DNA of 64,000 nt from Acidimicrobiia bacterium (GCA_028285585.1 JANQOU010000011.1:62001-126000), one strand, 5' to 3'. Shown: positions 24,639 through 43,128, counted from the first letter of the stretch. Notes: a model not told the origin generated them from the letters alone. Program-made: numbers and translations.

Positions 24639-25091
24639 ATGCATGAAGTTGTGGTGAGTGTCGATTCGAAAGCCGAGCCGTCGAAAGTCTGGGAGGTGAT
24701 GACAGACCTGGACAGGTCGCCGGACACGATTCGTGGAATCGTCGCCGTAGAGCGGCTTGACGGCGGTGCTGGCTTCGAGGTCGGCACCAGATGGCGCGAG
24801 ACCCGTGCGATATTCGGCCGAGAAGCGACAGAAGAGATGGAAGTGGTTTCAATCAACCCTGGCCGCTCATACACAGTTCTGGCGGCCAGCCGCGGGAACA
24901 ACTACACGACCGTGATGACTGTGGAGCCTGCACCCACCGGCTCGAGAGTCGCGATGTCTTTCCAAGCGGAGCCCACAGGCACAGTCGGCAAGCTCTTGGC
25001 AGCAACGATGGGTCGGCTGATGATCGGCGCGACCAAGAAGATGATCGCTCGGGATGTCGAAGACATCGCCACTGCGGCAGAAGTCAGTTAG
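24639..25091 (+). CDS. SRPBCC (START/Bet v1-like) family protein
   Basis: A 150-residue protein with the polyketide-cyclase/dehydrase-like fold pattern: VVVSVDSKAEPSKVWEVMTDLDRSPDTIRGIVAVERLDGG near the start and an amphipathic C-terminal helix (GKLLAATMGRLMIGATKKMIARDVEDIA). These bind hydrophobic ligands. AAAGGG precedes the ATG; the frame is open upstream to 24561. It is divergent from the orphan kinase and overlaps the convergent TfoX-like gene by 4 bp. Confidence 0.75.
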   Translation: MHEVVVSVDSKAEPSKVWEVMTDLDRSPDTIRGIVAVERLDGGAGFEVGTRWRETRAIFGREATEEMEVVSINPGRSYTVLAASRGNNYTTVMTVEPAPTGSRVAMSFQAEPTGTVGKLLAATMGRLMIGATKKMIARDVEDIATAAEVS

Positions 25092-25490: not shown

Positions 25491-25925
25491 TTACAACAGA
25501 GAGCCAGAAGCAGACTCCAGTATCACCACAGGAATCTCCCTTTCGGTGCGTGACTCGTAGACCGCGTAGCCGTCATAGGCGTCTAGGACCCGAGGCCACA
25601 GCTCTCGACGCTCCTCGGATGAGGCGGTCCTCGCTCTGAGGTGTCTTCGGCTGCCGGGCAGCTCAACGATGACATCTGGGGCGCTCCCCAAGTTGAGATA
25701 CCACTCCGGGTGACGGTCGCGACCGCCGTAGGAGGCGATGACGATCAGGTGGTCATCGTCGGAGAGATACAACAACGGGACGGTGTGTGGCTTGCCGGTG
25801 TGCCTGCCCGTCGTTGTGAGCAGGAGCATGTCATTGTCGACGAGGCGGCGACCCACGAGACCTCTCGTGGACCGGTACAGCACCCTGTGAACCGCAGACC
25901 ACCTCTTGACCGCACTGTCCTTCAT
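25491..25925 (-). CDS. Deazaflavin (F420)-dependent nitroreductase family protein
   Basis: A 144-residue split-barrel protein of the Ddn family: LTTTGRHTGKPHTVPLLYLSDDDHLIVIASYGGRDRHPEWYLNL is the characteristic F420/quinone-site region. Members reduce quinones or nitroaromatics with F420H2 near the membrane. With the LLM protein at 38.7 kb it indicates F420 use. No GGGAC-N4-GTCCC site is visible upstream, unlike the neighbouring stress genes. Confidence 0.85.
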   Translation of the reverse strand: MKDSAVKRWSAVHRVLYRSTRGLVGRRLVDNDMLLLTTTGRHTGKPHTVPLLYLSDDDHLIVIASYGGRDRHPEWYLNLGSAPDVIVELPGSRRHLRARTASSEERRELWPRVLDAYDGYAVYESRTEREIPVVILESASGSLL

Positions 25926-26060
25926 ATGATCACGGCAACGGTGAGACGACAGCCGTAGCCTCTGCTCAGCCTAGGGCGCGCAGATAGAGAGGGGTGTCGC
26001 CAAGCCCTGCTCCTATGTCTACCTGGAGCCTCTACGGAATCCGGCCCTCGTCGACGGATG

Positions 26061-26750
26061 TCACCAGTTGCCCATAGGGCGCTGAGACGGTGGAGGCAGG
26101 GTCATCTCGAGCTTGGTGTTGTCGACTTCATATCGGAGCTCGCTCTTCAACGAAGCGACTCCGTCGACGCGGCTCGCCAGCTCAACCAGCAGCTCGACGT
26201 CGGACCTCGTCTCCAAGTTTCCGACGAGAGTGACGTTTCCCTCCTCGCACCCGATCGACACCCGCTTTGGGTCGACCCACATCACTTTGCGCATCACCCG
26301 GTCACCGATCTCGTCGATGATGTCCTGATCTGGCCTGACAAACGAGCGCAGGACGTCGCTTCGAGAGACCAGACCGACCAACTCGCCTTCTTCCACGACA
26401 GGGAGCCTTTTGACTCCCGTCAGATGCATGAGCCGAGCCGCTTCCACATGCTCGGCATCCGGCGAGACGGTCATCACGTCGGTGGTCATCACATCTCCGA
26501 CAGACCGCTCCTCAGAAGGGACACCTTCATCTCGTATCAGGAAGCGGAGCAACCCGGCCCGCTTGCGCTTGCCGCGTCCCGCTTCGGCAGAAACGAAATC
26601 TGCCTCAGTGATGATCCCGACCAGACGCTCATCGTCAGTGACGAGCAGTCCGCTGATCCCAGCCTGAAGCATGCGACGAGCGGCCTCTTTGAGCGATGTC
26701 TCCGGCCCGACAGTTATCAGATCGGTGGTCATTAGATCGCGAATGATCAT
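26061..26750 (-). CDS. Tandem CBS-domain protein with C-terminal BON domain
   Basis: A 229-residue protein. Two CBS motifs (about 1-60: VRDLMTT-like MIIRDLMTTDLITV ... GLLVTDDERLVGIITEADF; about 82-140: VGDVMTTDVMTVSPDAEHVEAARLMHLTGVKRLPVVEEGELVGLVSRSDVL) pair into an adenosyl-ligand-binding module. A BON domain follows (about 150-215: IGDRVMRKVMWVDPKRVSIGCEEGNVTLVGNLETRSDVELLVELASRVDGVASL). CBS proteins such as Hrp1 belong to the DosR regulon of mycobacteria. A perfect GGGAC-N4-GTCCC site lies 58 bp upstream. Confidence 0.9.
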   Translation of the reverse strand: MIIRDLMTTDLITVGPETSLKEAARRMLQAGISGLLVTDDERLVGIITEADFVSAEAGRGKRKRAGLLRFLIRDEGVPSEERSVGDVMTTDVMTVSPDAEHVEAARLMHLTGVKRLPVVEEGELVGLVSRSDVLRSFVRPDQDIIDEIGDRVMRKVMWVDPKRVSIGCEEGNVTLVGNLETRSDVELLVELASRVDGVASLKSELRYEVDNTKLEMTLPPPSQRPMGNW

Positions 26751-26785
26751 GTTTCGAAGATAAGACAGCAGAGGAGAAGCACCAT

Positions 26786-26821
26786 CGGCCTAACGGCCTC
26801 TGCCATCGGGACATAGGTCCC
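26786..26821. promoter_or_regulatory. DosR-like box upstream of CBS-BON gene
   Basis: GGGACATAGGTCCC (26808-26821) matches the DosR core GGGAC-N4-GTCCC in all ten fixed positions. A degenerate palindrome CGGCCTAACGGCCT (26786-26799) sits exactly 22 bp closer to the gene, keeping the same N4 spacing. Confidence 0.6.
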
Positions 26822-26940
26822 TACCTCTTGACCCCTTGCGGTCGGACCATTGGCTCAGACAGTCTGAAGGTCTACAGGTGCGTTCAGCGGTGTGGGTCTG
26901 ATCAGAAGAAGGTCATTCATCCCCGCAACTTCGCATGATC

Positions 26941-26978
26941 GTTTGGGTGGTGGCTGCCTCCCGTGGCCGCCACCCAAC
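26941..26978 (-). terminator. Hairpin downstream of pfkA
   Basis: GTTTGGGTGGTGGC (26941-26954) and GCCGCCACCCAAC (26966-26978) pair with one wobble and one bulge, directly after the pfkA stop. No run of T follows, so termination may be Rho-assisted. Confidence 0.5.
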
Positions 26979-26981
26979 GGC

Positions 26982-28001
26982 CTAGGCGAAGAACCAGGAA
27001 GCCTCTTCGAATCTGCGGGTGTCAAGGTGCCGTACTTCGCTGCATGCGTCGAGAAGCCCGACCGGGACGATCTCACGACCCTGTGCCGCCACCATCACAT
27101 CTCTTCGGCCCTCCATGGCCAGCTCGCCCGCCTTGATCCCAAAACGCGTGCCGAGCACGCGATCAAACGCAGTGGGAGCACCACCTCGCTGGAGATAGCC
27201 AAGTGACATCACCCTCGCCTCGAACCCGGTGCGCTCCTCCAACTCCGCGGCGATCTCCTCACCGACCCCGCCGATTCGAGTGAAGCCGAAGGCATCGACA
27301 CCAGCTGTCTTGACCTCACCTCCCGGCCCGGCAGCGCCTTCGGCGACGACGACTATGGAGTAGTGATGGCCGGCTTGGTGTCGCGCCACCAACCGATCCG
27401 AAAGCGCCTCGAGGTCGCCGTCCATCTCTGGCACCAAGATCGCCTCAGCACCTCCTGCCATCCCGGCAACGGCTGCAATCCACCCGGTGGTCCGCCCCAT
27501 CACCTCGACCACCATGATCCTGTTGTGTGCTTCTGCTGTCGTAGTGAGGCGGTCGATGGCGTCAACGACTATCTGAACCGCGGTGTGAAAGCCGAGGCTG
27601 ACGTCGGTGAGACCGATGTCGTTGTCGATGGTCTTGGGGATGCCGACGATCGGCACGCCTTCGGCAGCGAGCTTGCCGGCGGTCCGCAAGGACCCGTCAC
27701 CACCGATGACCACCAGGGTCTCAATGTCGGCTTCCGCCAGCGTGCCGCTCACGGAGGCGAGGCCTGACCCGTGCTCATAGGGATCCATCCGCGAAGTCCC
27801 AAGAATGGTCCCGCCCCGGCCAATGATGCCTCGCACCTCATCGCGGCCAAGGCCGCTGAAGCGGCCTTCCATCAAACCGCGCCAGCCCTCCTCCACTCCA
27901 ACAACGTCCTCACCCTCAGCAATGACCCTGGTCACGACACCACGAATTGCGGCGTTGAGCCCAGGACAGTCGCCTCCCGCCGTGAGTATTCCTACTGGCA
28001 C
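26982..28001 (-). CDS. pfkA: 6-phosphofructokinase, group III (ATP-type residues)
   Basis: A 339-residue phosphofructokinase: GILTAGGDCPGLNAAIRG at the N-terminus, GGDGS at about 100 and PKTIDNDI with the catalytic TIDND, then VEVMGRTTGWIAA and LGYLQRGGAPTAFDR. The Gly of GGDGS predicts ATP use (PPi enzymes have Asp), while Lys in PKTIDND is the actinobacterial group III pattern. The GTG start has GAGG upstream. It lies 38 bp behind the universal stress protein in one transcription unit, echoing the co-regulated phosphofructokinase (pfkB) and stress proteins of the mycobacterial DosR set. Confidence 0.93.
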   Translation of the reverse strand: MPVGILTAGGDCPGLNAAIRGVVTRVIAEGEDVVGVEEGWRGLMEGRFSGLGRDEVRGIIGRGGTILGTSRMDPYEHGSGLASVSGTLAEADIETLVVIGGDGSLRTAGKLAAEGVPIVGIPKTIDNDIGLTDVSLGFHTAVQIVVDAIDRLTTTAEAHNRIMVVEVMGRTTGWIAAVAGMAGGAEAILVPEMDGDLEALSDRLVARHQAGHHYSIVVVAEGAAGPGGEVKTAGVDAFGFTRIGGVGEEIAAELEERTGFEARVMSLGYLQRGGAPTAFDRVLGTRFGIKAGELAMEGRRDVMVAAQGREIVPVGLLDACSEVRHLDTRRFEEASWFFA

Positions 28002-28039
28002 AGAGCCTCAGTCTGCCGTGGCTATACGGGCACCTGCGC

Positions 28040-28678
28040 TCAATCTGGTCCCAATTCCGACATTGGCCCTGGGACGAGTTTGCCTCCAACGAATATCGGG
28101 ACAGTGCTTCCAGACGCGAGCCTGCTGGTGACACTTCCGAACACAGCTTCGGTGGCGCCACGGCCGCGGGATCCAACCACGATCAACTCAACCCCGTTGT
28201 CCGCTGCGTATTTAGCCAGAGCCTGATCGGGGCGACCGTAGAGGATCACGGTCTGGAGATCGTCATGCTCCAGGGAGGACCCGTCTGACTCGAGAAGACG
28301 CTCAGCATCTTCCCGGGCTTCGGTGCCTGAGGGTGTTCCATGGGCGTCAAAGTCGAGGACGGTCGCAAGAGTCACACTGTTCGCCACGCCACCGAACAGT
28401 CCCAAGGCGGCGGCCATGGCCTGTCTCGATTCCTCCGACCCATCCAACGCCACAAGCATGTCGAAGGCACCTGCGTGATCACGTGCGACTGCCTTGCTGT
28501 TGACATCCTCTTCGCGACGAACCCGCTCGACGGCCAGCGGCACCACCAACGGGCCGAGCACCGTCCCCAGCGTCAGCCAGACCAGGAAGTCGTGACCACG
28601 GCGCCGCATGACGAACGAGGTGATTAGCCCGCAGAGAATCCAGGCCGCAAGGAGGCCAAACAAGAATTGGGTGGCCAT
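28040..28678 (-). CDS. Universal stress protein with N-terminal membrane helices
   Basis: A 212-residue protein. Two transmembrane segments at about 5-22 and 28-47 (FLFGLLAAWILCGLITSFV and FLVWLTLGTVLGPLVVPLAV) precede a USP domain: FDMLVALDGSEESRQAMAAAL, VILYGRPDQALAKYAADNGVELIVVGSRGRGATEAVFGSVTSRLASGSTVPIFV. The ATP-binding G-2x-G-9x-G(S/T) motif is intact (GSRGRG...GSVTS). AAGGAGGG precedes ATG 28678. First gene of a USP-pfkA unit, with a DosR-like box 48 bp upstream. Confidence 0.88.
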   Translation of the reverse strand: MATQFLFGLLAAWILCGLITSFVMRRRGHDFLVWLTLGTVLGPLVVPLAVERVRREEDVNSKAVARDHAGAFDMLVALDGSEESRQAMAAALGLFGGVANSVTLATVLDFDAHGTPSGTEAREDAERLLESDGSSLEHDDLQTVILYGRPDQALAKYAADNGVELIVVGSRGRGATEAVFGSVTSRLASGSTVPIFVGGKLVPGPMSELGPD

Positions 28679-28725
28679 AGCCCTCCTTTCACTGTCATCG
28701 TCACAGAAACCCCAGGCTGACACGA

Positions 28726-28761
28726 GGGCCGAAAGTCCCGACGGACGTCGCCCGTCGTCCC
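28726..28761. promoter_or_regulatory. DosR-like boxes between USP-pfkA and Ca2+ ATPase operons
   Basis: GGGCCGAAAGTCCC (28726-28739) matches GGGAC-N4-GTCCC at 9 of 10 positions. A second GTCCC (28757-28761) repeats at exactly 22 bp, with a degenerate left half. The region serves divergent genes starting at 28678 and 28797, so both operons may be controlled from it. Confidence 0.6.
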
Positions 28762-28796
28762 TTCACTCCGCTTAGGTCGACACTGATAATCGAAAG

Positions 28797-31424
28797 GTGG
28801 CCACATCTGTCGAGTCGAGGGACACGGTTCCATACCACTCGCTCACACCTTCGGACGTCGCAGAACTTCTCGAAACGGACCTGACCGCCGGGCTGGCCTC
28901 GGACCGAGCCCACGCCCTGCTCCAACTTCACGGCCCCAACAGGGTCGGCCACTCTGAACGCTGGATCAGGTTGAAACGTCTCAGCCGACAGTTTGCCGAT
29001 GTCTTGATCTGGATACTTCTCGTGGCAGCAGGTATCAGCGGATTGGTGCTTGGAGAATGGATCGACGCCGGCGCAATTGTGGCCATCGTCGCCCTCAATG
29101 CGGTCCTCGGCTACGTACAGGAGTCAAAGGCCGAGGCGGCACTCGACAAGCTGGAGGCGCTGGAAGCCCCCACCGCGACAGTGATCCGGGACGGGGCAGC
29201 CACGATCGCCCCCGCTGCCGGATTGGTACCGGGCGACGTCATTCAGCTGGAGGCCGGCGACGCGGTCCCGGCTGACGGCCGGGTCGCCTCCAGCTCCCAC
29301 ATGGAGTGTGCTGAGGCCGCTCTCACCGGAGAAAGCCTGCCTGTGAGCAAGAGCAACCAACCTGTGGCCCACGATGCCGGACTCGGGGATCGCGCCTCGA
29401 TGGTGTTCGCGGGCACGACCGTGGTTCGCGGGCGAGGCCGGGCAGTGGTGGCCACCACCGGTCTCAACACCGAGATGGGAAAAATCGCGGCGGCATTGAC
29501 TGAACCGGCACCACCCACACCACTCGAGGTCGAGATGGGCCGGATCGGGCGACGACTGGCCTTGGTAGCGATCGTCGCCGGGGTGCTCATCATGGGTACC
29601 GGTCTTCTCCAGGACTATCCGATCGAAACCATGGTTCTGACTTCTGTGGCCCTGGCGGTTGCTGCAATCCCCGAAGGACTGCCGGCCGTGATCACAGCAA
29701 CCCTCGCCGGAGGTACGACCAGGATGGCCAACCGCGCTGCAATCGTGCGCCGACTTCCCGCCGTCGAGGCCCTGGGAGCAGTCAACGTCATCTGCACCGA
29801 CAAGACAGGAACGCTCACCAAGTCGGAGCTAGCGGTGGATATTGTGGCCATCGCCGGCCGGTCAATGCACCTGAGCGAAGTCGATCCGAGGGGCCACGGG
29901 GTCACCGAGTTGATCGAGACGGCGGTTCTTTGCAACGACTCCCGTCAATCTGGGGACAAGACCATCGGCGACCCCACCGAAACGGCACTGATCGACGCCG
30001 TGCTGCAGACCGGCATCGACGTCGAGAGCCTTCGCAACGAAAGGCCGCGCATCGACGAGGTGGCTTTCGACAGCAGACGCAAGAGGATGTCGACTATCCA
30101 CGACGATCCCGAGGGAGGACACGTAATCCACACCAAAGGCGCGCCTGAGGTGATCATCGACCGCGCATCACATTGGCTGTCACCGGGCGGCGTGGCTCCA
30201 ATAGACGAAAACACCCGTGGAGCGCTACTGGCAGAAGCAGACGATCTGGCGGCCCAGGGGTACAGGACCTTGGCGTTCGCAGTCCGGCATCTGAACGAGC
30301 TTCCGGATGACCCCGCAGAAGCCGAGACCGGCATGACCTACGAGGGTGTCGTCGGACTGCATGACGAGGTGAGACCCGAAGTCGCCGATGCGTTGGCGAA
30401 GGCAAGGGGTGCGGGGGTCCGGACAGTCATGGTCACCGGTGACCACGTCATCACAGCACGTTCTGTCGCCGACACCATCGGCCTAGAGGGAGAGATCATG
30501 GGTGGTGACGAGCTCCGAGCAACGGGCTCGCGCACGCTCAGCGACCACATCGGCCAATACTCAGGATTCGCTCGGGTGGACCCCATCGACAAAGTGAAAA
30601 TCGTTGACGCGTGGCGTGATCGCGGCTCGATCGTTGCCATGACAGGGGACGGGGTAAACGACGCCCCAGCGCTGAAGACTGCGGACATCGGTGTCGCTAT
30701 GGGCTCCGGCACGGACATCGCCCGGGCCTCATCTGATCTGGTGCTGACCGACGACAACTACGCCACCATCGTGGCCGCTATCGACGAAGGCAGGCGCATC
30801 TTCAGGAACCTGCGAAATGTCGTCCACTACCTGCTGTCGGCCAACGCCTCTGAAGTCATATACATGGTGGTGGGATTCATAGCTTTCGGATTCCTCGGTG
30901 AACCGCTCCTTGCGGTTCAGCTGCTCTGGATCAACCTGCTCTCCGATGCCCTGCCAGCCCTCGCTCTCGGAATCGACAGACCCGCCGTTGACCTGATGAA
31001 CCAGATGCCAGGGGGTGGCCGCAACATCCTCAGCAGACGCAACCTCGCCATTCTCGTTGGTCAAGGCACCATCCTCGCCACCGCTTCGATTGCCACCCTG
31101 CTCGTAGGTCACTACGTGATGGATCTCGAGTTCACCGTCGTGCGCACCATGGTCTTCACGACGCTGGTCGTGGCCCAGCTCCTCCATGCGATCAACGTGC
31201 GATCGGACGATGAAGCCAGGATTTCGATGCCACAACCTGCACTGATCGGGGCAATCCTGACCTCCGCCACCCTGCAGATCCTCATCATCTACACGTCATT
31301 CGGGCACAGCATCTTCCGCACGGCCTCCTTGTCCGTCACATCATTGGCTGCCGTCGCCGGGTTCTCCGCCCTCTCGATGGCAGGGGTGCGGCTAATGAAC
31401 CGTATCCGCCACCACGCTGTCTGA
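28797..31424 (+). CDS. P-type ATPase, Ca2+-transporting (P2A-like)
   Basis: An 875-residue cation pump. The N-terminal CaATP_N segment is followed by the actuator TGES loop ([11 protein letters not shown]), phosphorylated Asp335 in [10 protein letters not shown], and hinge [11 protein letters not shown]. Ion-site residues resemble SERCA: M4 [12 protein letters not shown]5 [10 protein letters not shown] (Asn, Glu), M6 [17 protein letters not shown] (Asn, Asp). Ca2+ export is therefore favoured over other ions. Ten membrane helices. GTG start. It is translationally coupled to a Ca2+/cation exchanger and shares a DosR-like regulatory region with the USP gene; ctpF is the analogous pump in the mycobacterial DosR regulon. 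Confidence 0.9.
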
Positions 31425-32362
31425 TGGTCATGGCTGCGGCAGTGGTGGCGGTCACATCAGGGTTTGTCATTGCGGTCCTGGCCAGCCGACGGGCTGTGGC
31501 CAACACCGCCGAGATCGCAGCCGGCAGCCGCATCCCTCGATTCGTGATCGGATTCACACTGCTGGCCCTCGGGACCGACCTTCCCGAAATCGCCAATTCG
31601 ATCATCGCCTCGTTGGCAGGTCACGGTGACTTGAACGTAGGTGATAGCGTCGGCTCGGCCGCCACCCAGGTCACCCTGGTGCTCGGGCTGATGCCACTAC
31701 TTGCCGGAGCCTCGTTCTCGATATCTCAACGACGCTTCGGACGTGCTTCCGCAGCCACTGTCGGAGCTCTCTTACTCGGCTTGGCATTGATGGGCGACGG
31801 CGACGTCACCCGGCTCGACGCACTGGTCCTGATCGGAGCCTGGGTGTTCGGCAGCTACCTCATCTGGGATCCGGATGCGCCCGGAACCCAACTCGACTTG
31901 CCTCTCGAGACGACGCACAAAGGGCGCAAGATCTTGATGATCTTCCTGTCGCTGGGGATCGTCGCCGGCGGGGCAACGCTCGCCATCTGGGGGATGACGG
32001 AACTCGCTGAGACGGTTGGGGTGCCCCAATACCTCATGGCGTTCTTTCTCGCATCCTTGGGCACCTCGCTGCCCGAATTGGTTGTTGTCCTGACCGCAGC
32101 TCGCCAAGGGCAGAAGGACCTCGCGATCGGCGATGCCACTGGTGCGACATTTGTCGACTCGACGCTCTCGGTTGGCATCGGACCGCTGATTGCGCCGATA
32201 ACGGTCACCTCCAGCCTCGTGGTACGTGGCTCGCTGCTGGCGGCGTCTGCGGTTGCCCTGGTAGGGCTCACTCTTGTAGTCCGCAAGAGACACGACCGTC
32301 TCACCGGCGTGTTCCTGGTGCTCATATATCTGGCCTTCTACGCCGTGTTTGCGCTCACATGA
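31424..32362 (+). CDS. Ca2+/cation antiporter, CaCA (NCX-like) family
   Basis: A 312-residue membrane protein of ten predicted helices with the two inverted alpha-repeats of the CaCA family: FTLLALGTDLPEIANSIIAS ... GDSVGSAATQVT and FLASLGTSLPELVVVLTAARQGQKDLAIGDATGATFVDST. The acidic ion ligands (LPE in both repeats) are present. Its ATG overlaps the ATPase stop (TGATG), so both are made together: a high-affinity pump and a high-capacity exchanger for the same cation. Substrate inferred from the family and partner. Confidence 0.87.
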   Translation: MVMAAAVVAVTSGFVIAVLASRRAVANTAEIAAGSRIPRFVIGFTLLALGTDLPEIANSIIASLAGHGDLNVGDSVGSAATQVTLVLGLMPLLAGASFSISQRRFGRASAATVGALLLGLALMGDGDVTRLDALVLIGAWVFGSYLIWDPDAPGTQLDLPLETTHKGRKILMIFLSLGIVAGGATLAIWGMTELAETVGVPQYLMAFFLASLGTSLPELVVVLTAARQGQKDLAIGDATGATFVDSTLSVGIGPLIAPITVTSSLVVRGSLLAASAVALVGLTLVVRKRHDRLTGVFLVLIYLAFYAVFALT

Positions 32363-32375
32363 CAGCACAGGAACA

Positions 32376-33050
32376 TCAGACTTCGGGCCACTCTTCCGGT
32401 GGGTCGGCGTCTTTGGCTGCGTCGAGCCGTGCGACGTAGGCGGCCGCCTCACTGCGACGGCTCATCCCCATCTTGGCCAAGAGATTGGAGACGTAGTTCT
32501 TGACCGTCTTCTCGGCGAGGAACATCTCCTCTGCGATCTGGCGGTTGGTTTTGCCGTCTGCGATCCGCAGGACGATCTCGCGTTCCTGGTCCGACAGCAG
32601 GCTCAACAGCGGGTCCGACTGGGGGCCGGCACGGAGGCGCTCGAAGAGCTTCTCGGTCATCTCGGGATCGAGCAAGGATTCTCCGGCGCCGACACGACGG
32701 ATGTCCTCGATCAGATCGGAGCCCTTGACTCTCTTGAGCAGGTATCCGGAAGCGCCGGCGAGGATCGCCGACATCAGGGCCTCCTCATCGGCGAAGGACG
32801 TCAGCATCAGGACCTTCACGTCAGGGAACCGGGAGCGGATCTCCCGGCAAGCCTCCACGCCGCTGCCGTCGGGCAATCGAACGTCTAGAACCACTACGTC
32901 AGGCTCGTCGAAGCCGACGCGCTTCACACCGTCCTCGACGCTGCCTGCCTCGCCCACAACCGACATGTCAGGCTGCGCGTCGATCATCGATTTGATGCCT
33001 GTGCGAACGACCTCATGATCGTCTACCAGCACTATCCGGAGATCCGTCAT
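32376..33050 (-). CDS. DosR/DevR-like response regulator (NarL/LuxR type)
   Basis: A 224-residue regulator strikingly like mycobacterial DosR: LVDDHEVVRTGI, VVGEAGSVEDG, phospho-acceptor Asp56 in PDVVVLDVRLPDGSGVEACRE, MLTSFADEEALMSAILAGASGYLLKRVKG, and a LuxR-type helix-turn-helix with NRQIAEEMFLAEKTVKNYVSNLLAKMG. The recognition helix TVKNYVSxLLAKxG retains the Lys-Asn residues DosR uses to read GGGAC, which matches the GGGAC-N4-GTCCC sites nearby. Divergent from its GAF kinase across a 36-bp gap; TATCGT lies 8 nt before its ATG, implying a leaderless message. Confidence 0.92.
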   Translation of the reverse strand: MTDLRIVLVDDHEVVRTGIKSMIDAQPDMSVVGEAGSVEDGVKRVGFDEPDVVVLDVRLPDGSGVEACREIRSRFPDVKVLMLTSFADEEALMSAILAGASGYLLKRVKGSDLIEDIRRVGAGESLLDPEMTEKLFERLRAGPQSDPLLSLLSDQEREIVLRIADGKTNRQIAEEMFLAEKTVKNYVSNLLAKMGMSRRSEAAAYVARLDAAKDADPPEEWPEV

Positions 33051-33058
33051 CAGTAGGA

Positions 33059-33078
33059 ACGATAACGACCGTTATCGT
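33059..33078. promoter_or_regulatory. Perfect inverted repeat forming two back-to-back -10 elements
   Basis: ACGATAACGACCGTTATCGT: 9-bp arms around AC, centred in the 36-bp gap between the divergent regulator and kinase genes. Each arm supplies TATCGT on one strand, exactly 8 nt from the ATG of each gene, so the symmetry may reflect two leaderless promoters, an operator, or both. Confidence 0.65.
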
Positions 33079-33086
33079 CGAGTCCG

Positions 33087-34193
33087 ATGACGTCACAAGA
33101 CCAGGTCGAGCGGCTCGGCTCATTGATCGGCGCTGCCGCCGCAGTTGTGGGCGAAGTCGACCTCGATCAGGTCCTGCGCCGCCTGGTGACGCAGGCGAAG
33201 TCGGCGACAGGCGCCAAGTACGCGGCACTCGGCGTTCTCGGCGCCCATGGGGTTCTTCGCGAGTTCATCTACGACGGGATCGATGCCGATACAGCCGAGC
33301 GAATCGGGCCACTGCCTCAAGGCCATGGTGTGCTCGGCACGGTGGTCAGGGAACGGCAGACAATCGTCCTCGACGACATCTCGGAGCATGCAGACTCGTA
33401 CGGGTTCCCGGAGCACCATCCGGCCATGACCAACTTCCTCGGTGTCCCGGTCATGGCCGGCAACGAGTCGTTTGGCAACCTCTACCTAGCCGAGAAGACA
33501 GGGGGCTTCGATGACGAGGATGTCGCCAACGTGGAGGCTCTTGCACTCATCGCGGGATCGGCCGTCAACACGGCTCGACTGCGAGACAGCCTCGAGCAGA
33601 TGGCAATCGTGCAGGACCGCAACCGGATCGCCCGCGATCTGCACGACTCGATCATCCAAGACCTCTTCGCCATAGGCCTGAGCCTTCAGTCACTGTCGGA
33701 GCGAGTGGCCGACGACTCCTCAGCCCGACTGCTCGACGACTCGGTGGACCGGCTCGACGAGGTGGTTGAGTCGCTGCGCTCCTACATATACGACCTGAAG
33801 ACACACACGAAGCCGACGCTCGAACAGACCTTGAACGCCACAATCGACCGGTACCGCTCGGCCTATCCGAACGAGATCATCACCGAAGTGACAGAAGCTG
33901 TCGTCGTCGAGTCCTTGTTGTTCGACCAGATCGAGTTGCTCCTGTCCGAGTCCCTGTCGAACGCGTTGCGTCACTCCGGGACCGGGCCGATTCACGTCAC
34001 ACTGACAACAGCCAAGTCGGGGCTGATCCTTCAGGTGAAAGACCAGGGAACCGGCTTCGACCCCGCCGCACGGACGAAAGGCATGGGGTTGGCCGGCATG
34101 CGCGACCGAGTGTCGCGGCTTGGTGGCGAGCTCGGCATCGATTCGGCCCCCGGTAAGGGAGCGACGATCACTATCAGCCTGCCGCTGAACTGA
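33087..34193 (+). CDS. GAF-domain sensor histidine kinase, DosS/DevS-like
   Basis: A 368-residue soluble kinase. One GAF domain (about 25-165) resembles the heme-binding GAF-A of DosS: FIYDGIDADTAERIGPLPQGHGVLG, then DSYGFPEHHPAMTNFLGVPV with the His pair (110-111) in the region that holds the heme ligand in DosS. HisKA_3 follows with His186 in RNRIARDLHDSIIQDLFAIGL, then HATPase_c (SESLSNALRHSGTG, DQGTGFDPAARTKGMGLAGMRDR). DosS normally has two GAF domains; here only one is present. Probable sensor of O2, NO, CO or redox state for the adjacent regulator; heme binding is inferred. Confidence 0.9.
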   Translation: MTSQDQVERLGSLIGAAAAVVGEVDLDQVLRRLVTQAKSATGAKYAALGVLGAHGVLREFIYDGIDADTAERIGPLPQGHGVLGTVVRERQTIVLDDISEHADSYGFPEHHPAMTNFLGVPVMAGNESFGNLYLAEKTGGFDDEDVANVEALALIAGSAVNTARLRDSLEQMAIVQDRNRIARDLHDSIIQDLFAIGLSLQSLSERVADDSSARLLDDSVDRLDEVVESLRSYIYDLKTHTKPTLEQTLNATIDRYRSAYPNEIITEVTEAVVVESLLFDQIELLLSESLSNALRHSGTGPIHVTLTTAKSGLILQVKDQGTGFDPAARTKGMGLAGMRDRVSRLGGELGIDSAPGKGATITISLPLN

Positions 34194-34641
34194 CCTGGTC
34201 CTCAGCCAGGGCTTCGGCCAACCGATCCAGCCAGTTGCGAACGGTGGCGTCCGCATAGCGCCCGAGCACCGCTCGGTCGGCTACTCGCCCCACAAATCCG
34301 AGAGGCGGCTTGTAGTTGCCTTGAACGGTGAGCCTGGTTTGAGCAGGGCCGATGTGGCCCAGGATCAACTCGGCGTGCAGCTCGGGGAACAGCAGACCGG
34401 CACCCGACGCCGTCCAGGTGATCGGGTACACGAGACCTGAGCTGTGGATCTCGGCGAGACCCAAGCTCAAGGAGACCTCCTTGGCGATTCCCTGTTCCCA
34501 CGGGCCCACTCGGCTCCGGAGAGCTTCTCCTTCGCGGTACGCGACATCGGCCATCTCGGTCAGGTTGTGACGCACCTCGTCGAGGCGAGCCTCCACCTGA
34601 GACAGGCCCATCGGGACATGCGTGAAATAGTGGACGAACAT
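34174..34641 (-). CDS. SRPBCC-like hypothetical protein
   Basis: A 155-residue protein. The order of segments (MFVHYFTHVPMGLSQVEARLDEV..., beta-strand-rich centre LSLGLAEIHSSGLVYPITWTASGAGLLFPELHAELILGHIGPAQTRLTVQGNYKPPLG, C-terminal helix DATVRNWLDRLAEALAED) fits a START/SRPBCC ligand-binding fold. Its ATG overlaps the stop of the upstream PPOX gene (TGATG), so it is the third gene of the CBS-PPOX operon. The 3' end overlaps the convergent kinase by 20 bp. Function unknown. Confidence 0.65.
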   Translation of the reverse strand: MFVHYFTHVPMGLSQVEARLDEVRHNLTEMADVAYREGEALRSRVGPWEQGIAKEVSLSLGLAEIHSSGLVYPITWTASGAGLLFPELHAELILGHIGPAQTRLTVQGNYKPPLGFVGRVADRAVLGRYADATVRNWLDRLAEALAEDQVSSAAG

Positions 34642-35102
34642 CAGAGTCGTCCCGGTCTGGTCCTGGCACCCAGCCCGCCACCGCTGGCCATCCCGGAGAT
34701 CTCTTCGACCTCGACGACGATCACATGTGGGAAAGAAGCCATCGGCTGGAGGCCACCGCCGCTGAGGGGAGAGCCGAGGGCATCTCGATACTTCTCGTAG
34801 AGCTTCTCGATGGTGAGAGCCCCCAGAGGACCGTCGAAGGTCTCTACCGCCTTCCCGCGCACGACCACACTCGCCCAGTCTCCGTTGTCGGGATCGAACG
34901 ACGAAACCTCGATCGACACCGCGGGATTGGCAGCGATGGCCGCCGCCCGACGGCCAGGCTTGGTCCGGAAGAGGATCCGGCCTTCATGCACCACAAACGA
35001 CATCGGAGTCACATAGGGCTCGCCGTCGACGACGACCCCGATGTGAGCTACCGGTGAATACGTCAGGAGATCCCACGCCTCTGCGTCGGTGAGGACCTCC
35101 AT
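34641..35102 (-). CDS. Pyridoxamine 5'-phosphate oxidase-like (PPOX/NimA-type) flavin protein
   Basis: A 153-residue split-barrel protein: LLTYSPVAHIGVVVDGEPYVTPMSFVVHEGRILFRTKPGRRAAAIAANPAVSIEVSSFDP is the usual FMN/F420-binding half, with SVVVRGKAVE following. It resembles the nitroimidazole-resistance/PPOX group rather than true PdxH. Encoded 2 bp downstream of a CBS-domain gene and overlapping an SRPBCC-like gene, all behind tandem DosR-like boxes. Confidence 0.85.
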   Translation of the reverse strand: MEVLTDAEAWDLLTYSPVAHIGVVVDGEPYVTPMSFVVHEGRILFRTKPGRRAAAIAANPAVSIEVSSFDPDNGDWASVVVRGKAVETFDGPLGALTIEKLYEKYRDALGSPLSGGGLQPMASFPHVIVVEVEEISGMASGGGLGARTRPGRL

Positions 35103-35104
35103 GT

Positions 35105-35488
35105 CTACAGCGTCGCGCTATCCGTTATCGCCCAGAGGATGTCCTTTATCGAGACCATCCCGATCAAATCGCCATTCTCGTCAACCACCGGCAGATGGCG
35201 GTAGCCGGTGGCGAGCATCCAGTCGCTCGCATCCTCCACGGACATCTCGGGACCAAACGTGTCGGGCAGCTTCGTCATGAAATCGCCAACAGTGGCCTCG
35301 CTCACATCTGACGACTCTGCGACGACGTTGAGGACGTCGCGTTCGGTGAAGATGCCCTCGAGTGAGCCGTCGACCACAACAGCCAGGGATCCAACTCCAG
35401 TCTCCTGCATCTCCGACGCAGCCGCCCGGATGGCCGTGTCCGGTGTGACGGAGATGACCTCTCCCCCAACGAGTTCTTTGATTGTCAT
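35105..35488 (-). CDS. Two-CBS-domain protein, Hrp1-like
   Basis: A 127-residue protein consisting almost only of a Bateman module: MTIKELVGGEVISVTPDTAIRAAASEMQETGVGSLAVVVDGSLEGIFTERDVL and VGDFMTKLPDTFGPEMSVEDASDWMLATGYRHLPVVDENGDLIGMVSIKDIL. Size and form match Hrp1 (Rv2626c), one of the most strongly induced DosR targets in M. tuberculosis. It heads a CBS-PPOX-SRPBCC operon and has two DosR-like boxes 65-100 bp upstream. Confidence 0.9.
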   Translation of the reverse strand: MTIKELVGGEVISVTPDTAIRAAASEMQETGVGSLAVVVDGSLEGIFTERDVLNVVAESSDVSEATVGDFMTKLPDTFGPEMSVEDASDWMLATGYRHLPVVDENGDLIGMVSIKDILWAITDSATL

Positions 35489-35552
35489 GCCGGGGAACCT
35501 CCGTGTCTCGGCAGTTGACCGAATTGTCGGCGCTTGGCCCCGGCGTAGGGCA

Positions 35553-35588
35553 TGGACCGAAGTCCCGGTTCGATGGGACTTCGGTTAC
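35553..35588. promoter_or_regulatory. Tandem DosR-like boxes upstream of CBS-PPOX operon
   Basis: TGGACCGAAGTCCC (35553-35566; 9/10 match to GGGAC-N4-GTCCC) and GGGACTTCGGTTAC (35575-35588; 8/10) lie exactly 22 bp apart. The two also form an 11-bp inverted repeat around 8 bp, so a hairpin terminator for the upstream permease gene is an alternative reading of the same bases. Confidence 0.6.
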
Positions 35589-41232: not shown

Positions 41233-43128
41233 ATGACCTCAGGACCTGAGAAGACACCGGCCGCGGTCAAGTACGCCTATCTGCGCAGCGACGGCACGGC
41301 CTACATCGTGGCGGGCAGCCTCGTCGCGGGCATCGGCGCATACGCCTATCAGCTGCTCGGCGGGAGGACATTGGGAGCCGAAGCGTTCGCCCCGGTGTCG
41401 GTGTTGCTCACCATCCACTTCCTGACGTTCATAGTGCTGTTGCTCCCGATCGAGCAGTTGGTGGTGCGCCGGCTCACGATCGACCGTTCCAAGTCGGGGC
41501 TGCCTTGGACAGCGTGGTTGCTGGGCTCGCTCACGGTCGCCGGGGCCACCATCTTCGCCGAGATCGGAGTTGACAGGTACCTGAACGGGGACCGTCGCTT
41601 CATCGTCTTCACCGGCGCCACTGTCGCCGCCCACTTCTTCTTCGCAACTGCGCGCGGTCACCTCGCCGGCTGGCGGCGATTCCGCGCATATGGCATGTCT
41701 TCGGGAGCGGCGTCTCTGGTGAGGCTGGCCATCGCGATTGCCGTGACGATCGTGCACCCCTCAGCATCAGGATTCGCCGTGGGGTTGGTGCTCGGTGCGT
41801 TGGTGGTTGCGTTGTGGAGACCGTTCCGCCGCGTCGACGTCGAACGCGAGGAGTTGGAGGCGGAGGCCAAGGAGACTCTGGACGACCGCGGCCTGTTGCC
41901 AGGGCTGGTGCTTGCCGCGGCCAGCTCCCAGGCGTTGCTGCTGGCCGGGCCAATCGTCGTCGGGATGCTCGGTGGAACCGCCGTGGAGATCAGCGTCGCC
42001 TTCGCCGCCTTCACGCTCGGCCGGGCTCCACTCACCTTCGGCTACAACCTGTTGGCCCGGGTGCTGCCCCCGTTCACCGAGATGGCCGCGAAGGGAGAGC
42101 GACAGGAGCTGAGAGCTTGGGCGCGTGGCATGGCTTGGGCCTCGACAGCTCTGGCCATCGTCGGCGCAGGCCTGGGCTGGATCCTCGGCCCCTGGGTCGT
42201 TGAGATCGCCTTCGGCCCTGACTTCATCCTGTCGAGGTTGACTGCGGCTGCCGTCTCCTTCGGGGTGGTGTTCGCCGGGGGCGGCCTTTTTGTGGGGCAG
42301 ATTCTCGTTGCGCGCGGCGAGCCGCTCCGACTCGGCATCGCATGGATCAGCGGAGTGCTTGCGGCGGTTGCCGCCATCTTCCTAACTCCGGAGATGGAGC
42401 CCGTGGCCCGGGTCGGCCTCGGGTTCGTAGCCGGCGAGGTGACCGCCCTCATCGCGCTAGTCGCCGGAGCCGTGCTCATTGGAAAGGAAGAACGACTCGA
42501 GCCGGGCACGACGGCCGCCTTCAACGTGGCGAAACGCACTGTGGACATCGCCGTCTCGCTGGCGATGATGGTTCTGACGCTGCCAATCGTCCTGATCGCA
42601 GGCATCGCGGTGAGGCTGGACTCCCCGGGCCCGATCTTCTTCCGCCAAGTTCGAACCGGCAGGGATGGCCAGCCTTTCGGGCTGATGAAGATACGGACCA
42701 TGCGGGCCGACGCAGACGAAGAGGTGTTCGCGGCCCACCTCGCCAGGCTTCAGGCCAGTCACAAGTCGGAAACGGCCGTACCGATCGCGATTCAGGACGA
42801 CCAGCGTGTCACCAGGGTCGGCCGTGTCTTGAGGCGCTCTTCGATCGACGAGCTTCCCAACCTCTGGAACGTCCTCCGCGGTCACATGTCACTCGTTGGC
42901 CCGCGTCCGCTGGTCTCCGACGAAGCCGAGCTGATCGGCCTCGACAACCCGCGCTTCACCGTCAAGCCGGGGATCACCGGGCTCGCTCAGGTGGAAGGCC
43001 GGGACACCATCACCCTTGCCGAGCGTACGGCTCTCGACGAGCGGTACGTGCGGGAGAGGTCAGGGAGACTCGACATCTCGATCCTGCGGCGGACCTTCTT
43101 CGCGGTTTTCACCGAGCCCGGGGACTGA
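41233..43128 (+). CDS. Fusion: polysaccharide flippase (MOP/Wzx-like) + polyprenyl-phosphate sugar-phosphate transferase
   Basis: A 631-residue protein. Residues about 20-420 hold 12 or more hydrophobic segments resembling MOP-superfamily lipid-linked oligosaccharide flippases. Residues about 434-631 are a complete bacterial sugar transferase: KRTVDIAVSLAMMVLTLPIVLIAGIAVRLDSPGPIFFRQVRTGRDGQPFGLMKIRTM, RRSSIDELPNLWNVLRGHMSLVGPRPL and GITGLAQVEGRDT, with the membrane re-entrant helix. WbaP-type enzymes load the first sugar phosphate on undecaprenyl phosphate and Wzx moves the finished unit across the membrane, so one chain would hold the first and a late step. GGGAG lies before ATG 41233. No stop or frame break occurs between the parts. 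Confidence 0.85.
   Translation: MTSGPEKTPAAVKYAYLRSDGTAYIVAGSLVAGIGAYAYQLLGGRTLGAEAFAPVSVLLTIHFLTFIVLLLPIEQLVVRRLTIDRSKSGLPWTAWLLGSLTVAGATIFAEIGVDRYLNGDRRFIVFTGATVAAHFFFATARGHLAGWRRFRAYGMSSGAASLVRLAIAIAVTIVHPSASGFAVGLVLGALVVALWRPFRRVDVEREELEAEAKETLDDRGLLPGLVLAAASSQALLLAGPIVVGMLGGTAVEISVAFAAFTLGRAPLTFGYNLLARVLPPFTEMAAKGERQELRAWARGMAWASTALAIVGAGLGWILGPWVVEIAFGPDFILSRLTAAAVSFGVVFAGGGLFVGQILVARGEPLRLGIAWISGVLAAVAAIFLTPEMEPVARVGLGFVAGEVTALIALVAGAVLIGKEERLEPGTTAAFNVAKRTVDIAVSLAMMVLTLPIVLIAGIAVRLDSPGPIFFRQVRTGRDGQPFGLMKIRTMRADADEEVFAAHLARLQASHKSETAVPIAIQDDQRVTRVGRVLRRSSIDELPNLWNVLRGHMSLVGPRPLVSDEAELIGLDNPRFTVKPGITGLAQVEGRDTITLAERTALDERYVRERSGRLDISILRRTFFAVFTEPGD

Follow-up and report, generated by a model that had tools for sequence, protein, structure and literature searches.

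A Predicted DosR-Type Low-Oxygen Regulon Core in an Uncultured Acidimicrobiia Bacterium

Introduction

The gene cluster analyzed in the present work lies at positions 25,491–35,588 of a 64-kb stretch of DNA (hereafter, the window; GCA_028285585.1, JANQOU010000011.1:62001-126000) from a bacterium of the class Acidimicrobiia, and its closest described counterparts are the DosR-DosS/DosT system of Mycobacterium tuberculosis and the OsdKR system of Streptomyces. In S. coelicolor, OsdR is a DevR (DosR) orthologue whose targets, including universal stress proteins (USPs) and nar2, are clustered in the region SCO0167-SCO0219, and an OsdR box, AGGGACCTTCGGCCCC, is located upstream of narG2 (PMC5069765). 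Streptomyces thus offers a precedent for a DosR-type regulon that is clustered and includes nar genes (PMC5069765).

The locus studied here resembles OsdKR (PMC5069765) in having a DosR-type regulator outside mycobacteria, targets grouped around the regulator, and both a USP and a nar operon among the predicted targets; moreover, the OsdR box nearly equals the consensus obtained in the present work. It differs in the additional predicted targets (a CBS-PPOX-SRPBCC operon, a Ca2+ ATPase-exchanger pair, and a ba3 oxidase), in the nar operon being placed on another contig, and in the kinase and regulator genes, which are divergently transcribed instead of forming one operon. With the M. tuberculosis system it shares an orthologous regulator, a heme-type GAF kinase, the box core, the box pairs, and the classes USP, CBS, P-type ATPase, phosphofructokinase, and nitrate transport. 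The kinase, however, has one GAF domain (two in M. tuberculosis), the phosphofructokinase belongs to the PfkA family (PF00365) and not to the PfkB class to which an earlier note on this DNA had likened it, and the dosR promoter, unlike that of M. tuberculosis and of many relatives, has no box.

That note had described the cluster as a dormancy regulon laid out as one genomic island. According to the data reported below, it is quite likely that the cluster represents the core of a DosR-type regulon responding to low oxygen (possibly also to NO or CO), in which a heme kinase acts, through the regulator and its boxes, on operons both in the cluster and outside of it.

Results and Discussion

The Response Regulator

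The regulator of the window harbors the LDVRLPDG and TVKNYVSNLLAKMG motifs (the latter in the recognition helix), as had been noticed before. Its best match in the PDB is the M. tuberculosis DosR structure 3c3w (230 bits), the runner-up being VraR (160 bits). Probing the whole genome with M. tuberculosis DosR retrieved the window regulator as the top match (53% identity, 227 bits), the next one scoring 131 bits. In a midpoint-rooted tree of 65 sequences, M. tuberculosis DosR, the window protein, and their relatives form a clade of 55 (support 0.958), which leaves out VraR and five paralogues from the same genome. The alignment revealed that the equivalents of D54, K104, K179, K182, and N183 are identical to those of DosR; the phosphorylatable residue (Asp54) and the DNA-contact residues (K179, K182, and N183) are, therefore, all conserved. 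By reciprocal best match and by clade, the sequence is that of a DosR orthologue, which bears out the proposal of a DosR-type regulator outside mycobacteria.

The Kinase

The kinase (368 residues) consists, according to Pfam, of one GAF domain followed by HisKA_3 and HATPase domains. The GAF-A domains of DosT and DosS are the top PDB matches of its GAF, both in sequence and in predicted fold (template modelling, TM, score of about 0.9 on the domain). His111 corresponds to the heme ligand His149 of DosS, and Tyr133 to the distal Tyr171; equivalents of both are present in 56 of the 56 Acidimicrobiia kinases aligned. In addition, position 87 is a glycine in all 56, as in DosT, and position 169 is an asparagine, also DosT-like. 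The GAF kinase that had been noticed beside the regulator is, thus, of the DosS/DosT type with its heme-pocket residues kept, and it is probably a heme-based gas sensor.

Whether DosS acts as a redox sensor or as a gas sensor is disputed, and its E87G or E87A substitution has been reported to yield a stable oxy complex (PMC4082495). An alternative reading is that the same regulator and boxes are at work in the cluster, and that the signal is the redox state or another ligand instead of oxygen loss. The presence of one GAF domain, with which the kinase may differ from DosS/DosT, and the argument that DosS itself is a redox sensor (PMC4082495) are in favor of this reading. The glycine at position 87 in all the 56 kinases, as in oxygen-binding DosT and in the DosS E87G mutant, and a predicted regulon that takes in oxygen- and nitrate-respiration genes argue against it; accordingly, we regard a signal other than oxygen loss as unlikely, although it retains some weight.

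DosR Boxes in the Cluster

The GGGAC-N4-GTCCC sites that had been placed at 26808, 28726, and 35553 were retrieved at these positions with zero, one, and one mismatches, respectively (boxes 1–3, Table 1). Counted as such, the bare pattern does not exceed the background: allowing up to two mismatches, the window contains 51 matches versus 73 in shuffles, and allowing up to one, the genome contains 125 versus 130 for a reversed-pattern control. The earlier note had itself named a background frequency of the motif as a finding that would speak against its proposal, and for the bare motif this is what emerged. Motif counting was dropped as evidence, and the case must rest, therefore, on position and conservation, that is, on comparative evidence.

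The set of related dosR loci (n = 32) embeds 388 kb, 39 kb of which are intergenic. In these loci GGGACTTNNGNCCC (up to one mismatch) occurs 13 times in intergenic and once in coding DNA, whereas permuted-pattern controls gave on average 1.0 intergenic (maximum 4) and 12.1 coding matches. A matrix built on 80 sites from the 32 loci plus further relatives' loci, with the window excluded, gave 99 matches of at least 10 bits per 100 kb in intergenic versus 3.7 in coding DNA, the matrix having been refined on those intergenic sites. It ranks boxes 1, 2, and 3 as first, second, and fourth in the 64 kb, and they are the only intergenic matches above 7 bits. With a leave-out matrix, from which the two loci with the orthologous CBS promoter had been removed, boxes 1 and 2 still rank first and second, with 20.8 and 17.4 bits, and shuffling the intergenic segments of the cluster 2000 times gave no run with three segments of at least 11 bits; since just boxes 1 and 2 reach 11 bits under this matrix, the shuffles provide no more than a general reference for box 3. 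A box also precedes the CBS-BON gene in one relative (L293, 14.8 bits).

In principle, the regulator might be an ordinary member of the NarL/LuxR family, the kinase might sense a non-gas signal, and the sites might occur by chance in a genome with 63% G+C. The background level of the bare motif in both window and genome would fit this scenario, as would the many perfect matches elsewhere that fall inside genes. It is hardly compatible with boxes enriched by position and across genomes, with a box pair conserved at an orthologous promoter, or with the reciprocal best match, the tree, and the heme-pocket residues described above, and we consider it highly improbable. On the basis of position and conservation, the three cluster sites are predicted DosR boxes, more than chance would give; the relatives' matrix thus points to boxes upstream of the genes for which they had been proposed.

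The region of box 3 represents a conserved footprint of about 40 bp with two boxes 22 bp apart. In two genomes of the same family (G031 and G024), the pair ACCGAAGTCCC-N8-GGGACTTCGGT is retained upstream of the CBS gene, at much the same position and with different flanks, and three further relatives have a box at the CBS promoter (13.0–15.0 bits). Over 122 boxes, a second site was found most often at 22 bp (13 out of 244), followed by 23 bp (7), the other spacings mostly having 0–2. DevR is known to bind primary and secondary paired sites cooperatively (PMC3029386); in the literature passages searched, no statement on the spacing of M. tuberculosis DosR box pairs was found.

The inverted repeat at 35553/35575 lies past the stop codon of an upstream FtsX-like gene, on the same strand, and an 11-bp stem is possible, so that it might be read as the terminator of that gene and not as a regulator box pair. 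Yet no T-run follows the repeat, in the two relatives the pair and the CBS start are separated by a similar distance although the sequence past the pair differs, the upstream gene of relative L051 has no match to the FtsX-like protein, and 22-bp box pairs occur in oxidase promoters, too. A terminator is, in the light of these data, highly improbable, and we retain the predicted box pair.

Predicted Targets Beyond the Cluster

Perfect copies of GGGACTTNNGNCCC occur three times in the genome: one within a gene, one between the USP and ATPase genes, and one 51 bp upstream of narK; the 14-mer of box 2 recurs identically upstream of the nar operon, whose gene order is narK-narK-cytochrome c-narG-narH-narJ. 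Among the matches listed, the best intergenic ones outside the cluster are those upstream of this operon and of a ba3 oxidase/cytochrome c pair. In the latter case, a site of 17.9 bits is located between the cytochrome c gene and COX2-COX1, and COX1 scores 463–469 bits with ba3 oxidase versus 59 with A-type enzymes. Boxes were also retrieved at narK in relatives L184 and L182 and at the oxidase genes in L229, L232, L236, and L237. A further candidate site (L036:1499, G000:C6:29355; 13.9 bits) precedes, by about 100 bp, a gene for pyruvate:ferredoxin oxidoreductase, which possibly belongs to the regulon. As for the eight Usp matches in the genome, none besides that of the cluster has a clear upstream site of at least 11 bits in the scanned loci. 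Hence, the regulon as predicted extends beyond the cluster.

A Possible Mechanism

Starting from what was computed, namely the regulator orthology, the heme-pocket residues, and the boxes with their conservation, we infer heme binding, the signal, phosphotransfer, activation, and the physiological outcome as follows. The kinase would sense gas via heme bound by its one GAF domain, with His111 and the distal Tyr133 taking part; upon oxygen loss, it would phosphorylate the regulator, which in turn would bind aGGGNCNTTNGNCCCt boxes, at times as pairs 22 bp apart. This would turn on the CBS-BON, USP-phosphofructokinase, Ca2+ ATPase-exchanger, and CBS-PPOX-SRPBCC genes in the cluster, and the nar operon and the ba3 oxidase/cytochrome c pair outside of it. 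The earlier note had proposed a persistence programme; the extra targets suggest a low-oxygen respiratory switch just as much.

Several data weigh against this scenario. The scan of the 36-bp divergent dosR/dosS gap gave no box above 0 bits, and there is, therefore, no sign of dosR autoregulation; many relatives do carry boxes at this gap. According to Pfam, the kinase has no GAF-B domain separating GAF-A from the kinase core, as DosS/DosT do, and for this reason it is named DosS/DosT-type and not a full DosS. Under the leave-out matrix box 3 drops below 9 bits; being weak by score without its two closest orthologues, it stands on conservation. A box directly upstream is lacking for most relatives of the Ca2+ ATPase and, among the CBS-BON homologues listed, for about half or more. 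The same is true, at a threshold of at least 9 bits, for narK in relatives L183, L185, and L187-L190 and for the oxidase genes in L231, L233-L235, L238, and L240; boxes being present in some relatives and absent from others, regulon membership varies. Lastly, the genome-wide targets were obtained by pattern searches and the matrix, and cover the matches listed rather than the whole genome.

Half of the dosR/dosS gap is filled by a perfect palindrome (Table 1), with partly similar, imperfect counterparts in G031 and G024; it may represent back-to-back promoter elements or another operator.

Gene Content and Organization of the Cluster

The genome (2.59 Mb in 14 contigs, 97% complete) is that of an uncultured environmental actinobacterium of the class Acidimicrobiia, and the named dosR loci closest to that of the window belong to Acidimicrobiia metagenome genomes. 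All the genes previously named in the cluster are present (Table 1). Pfam backs the quinone reductase/nitroreductase-like, CBS-BON, phosphofructokinase, USP, ATPase, exchanger, regulator, kinase, two-CBS, and PPOX genes, and the SRPBCC gene was recognized by predicted fold.

Table 1. Features of the cluster, with positions counted from the first nucleotide of the window.
Feature	Position	Strand	Basis and remarks
F420H2-dependent quinone reductase/deazaflavin nitroreductase-like	25491..25925	-	PF04075 129 bits, TIGR00026
2x CBS + BON protein	26061..26750	-	Pfam; ATG at 26750, box centre ~64 bp upstream
Predicted DosR box 1, GGGACATAGGTCCC	26808..26821		0 mismatches to GGGAC-N4-GTCCC; 20.9 bits, best in window
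6-phosphofructokinase, PfkA family	26982..28001	-	PF00365 334 bits; NCBIfam PFK models; gene 2 of USP unit
Universal stress protein (USP)	28040..28678	-	PF00582; ATG 28678 preceded by AAGGAGG
Predicted DosR box 2, GGGACTTTCGGCCC (minus strand)	28726..28739		1 mismatch; 17.6 bits; divergent USP/Ca2+ ATPase promoter
P2-type Ca2+ ATPase	28797..31424	+	Best PDB match LMCA1 Ca2+-ATPase, 507 bits
Na/Ca exchanger-family antiporter	31424..32362	+	PF01699; PDB NCX_Mj 65 bits
DosR/DevR-orthologous response regulator, NarL/LuxR type	32376..33050	-	PDB search, reverse search, tree
Perfect 18-bp palindrome CGATAACGACCGTTATCG	33060..33077		Covers half of the 36 bp between dosR and dosS
DosS/DosT-type kinase, one heme-type GAF	33087..34193	+	PDB DosT/DosS GAF-A 134-123 bits; predicted fold
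SRPBCC/START-like small protein	34174..34641	-	Predicted fold; gene 3 of CBS operon
PPOX (pyridoxamine-phosphate-oxidase-like) flavin protein	34641..35102	-	PF12900; PDB matches to PPOX-related proteins weak
Two-CBS-domain protein	35105..35488	-	PF00571 x2; gene 1 of CBS-PPOX-SRPBCC
Predicted DosR box 3, GGGACTTCGGTCCA (minus strand)	35553..35566		1 mismatch; 11.3 bits; orthologous box in G031/G024
Second, weaker predicted DosR half-box	35575..35588		4.2 bits; inverted relative to box 3, 22 bp off

Concerning the "genomic island", the genes are indeed clustered; the same box, though, is found elsewhere, upstream of the nar operon, of the ba3 oxidase, and possibly of the pyruvate:ferredoxin oxidoreductase gene. 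A foreign or mobile island was rejected: the G+C content is even over the window and ordinary in the cluster (0.61–0.63), no tRNA gene was found in the 64-kb window, and the neighbouring genes that were examined include no integrase. Because of this ordinary G+C content and the lack of tRNA genes, we speak of a regulon cluster.

The CBS-PPOX-SRPBCC genes adjoining dosS-dosR represent a core that recurs in Acidimicrobiia. The two-CBS protein matches the Rv2626c/Hrp1 structures weakly, among many CBS proteins. The SRPBCC-like protein gave no match in the Pfam and NCBIfam searches, and its predicted fold fits SRPBCC/START-like structures with low TM scores (about 0.5); even without a model in these databases, the family recurs in the CBS-PPOX operon beside dosS in Acidimicrobiia. 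A second SRPBCC-type gene (Polyketide_cyc2/CoxG), without a box, is located near the cluster at 24639-25091.

CBS-BON homologues adjoin dosR in many Acidimicrobiia relatives, and a homologue of the F420H2-dependent quinone reductase gene follows dosR in relatives L051 and L200; in the window, the latter gene possibly closes the CBS-BON unit. The Ca2+ ATPase-exchanger pair, as had been proposed, is real. The start codon of the exchanger and the stop codon of the ATPase overlap by one base, and the divergent USP/ATPase-exchanger layout is shared by relative L259. The top NCBIfam model for the ATPase is of the PMR1 type, with a score under the cut-off. Near its N-terminus, the USP is hydrophobic over a stretch resembling two membrane helices, so that the protein may be anchored in the membrane.

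Elsewhere in the window, positions 41233-43128 code for a single protein whose N-terminal half is long and hydrophobic and whose C-terminus is a bacterial sugar transferase domain (PF02397); it resembles a fusion of an exporter with a priming transferase.

Conclusions

The literature search retrieved no paper naming DosR together with "Acidimicrobi-". The system described here is a further, class-wide member of the DosR type, in another class, the Acidimicrobiia; its kinase has one GAF domain, and its predicted targets include a branch for ba3 oxidase and Ca2+ transport. The DosR regulon is, in this way, extended from mycobacteria and Streptomyces to a deep class of mostly uncultured actinobacteria, and the same box is predicted to control the ba3 oxidase and nitrate respiration, too. 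A kinase with the predicted heme GAF alone would offer a system for gas sensing without GAF-B.

Tentatively, and with less than even confidence, DosR-DosS might be viewed as a respiratory switch that is old and class-wide in Acidimicrobiia, in which a single-GAF, DosT-like heme kinase is coupled to ba3 oxidase, nitrate respiration, and the export of Ca2+; under this view, M. tuberculosis would have derived its specialised "dormancy" regulon from a general actinobacterial regulon for low-oxygen respiration. Whether DosR originated as a regulator of dormancy or of respiration becomes testable through regulon comparison.

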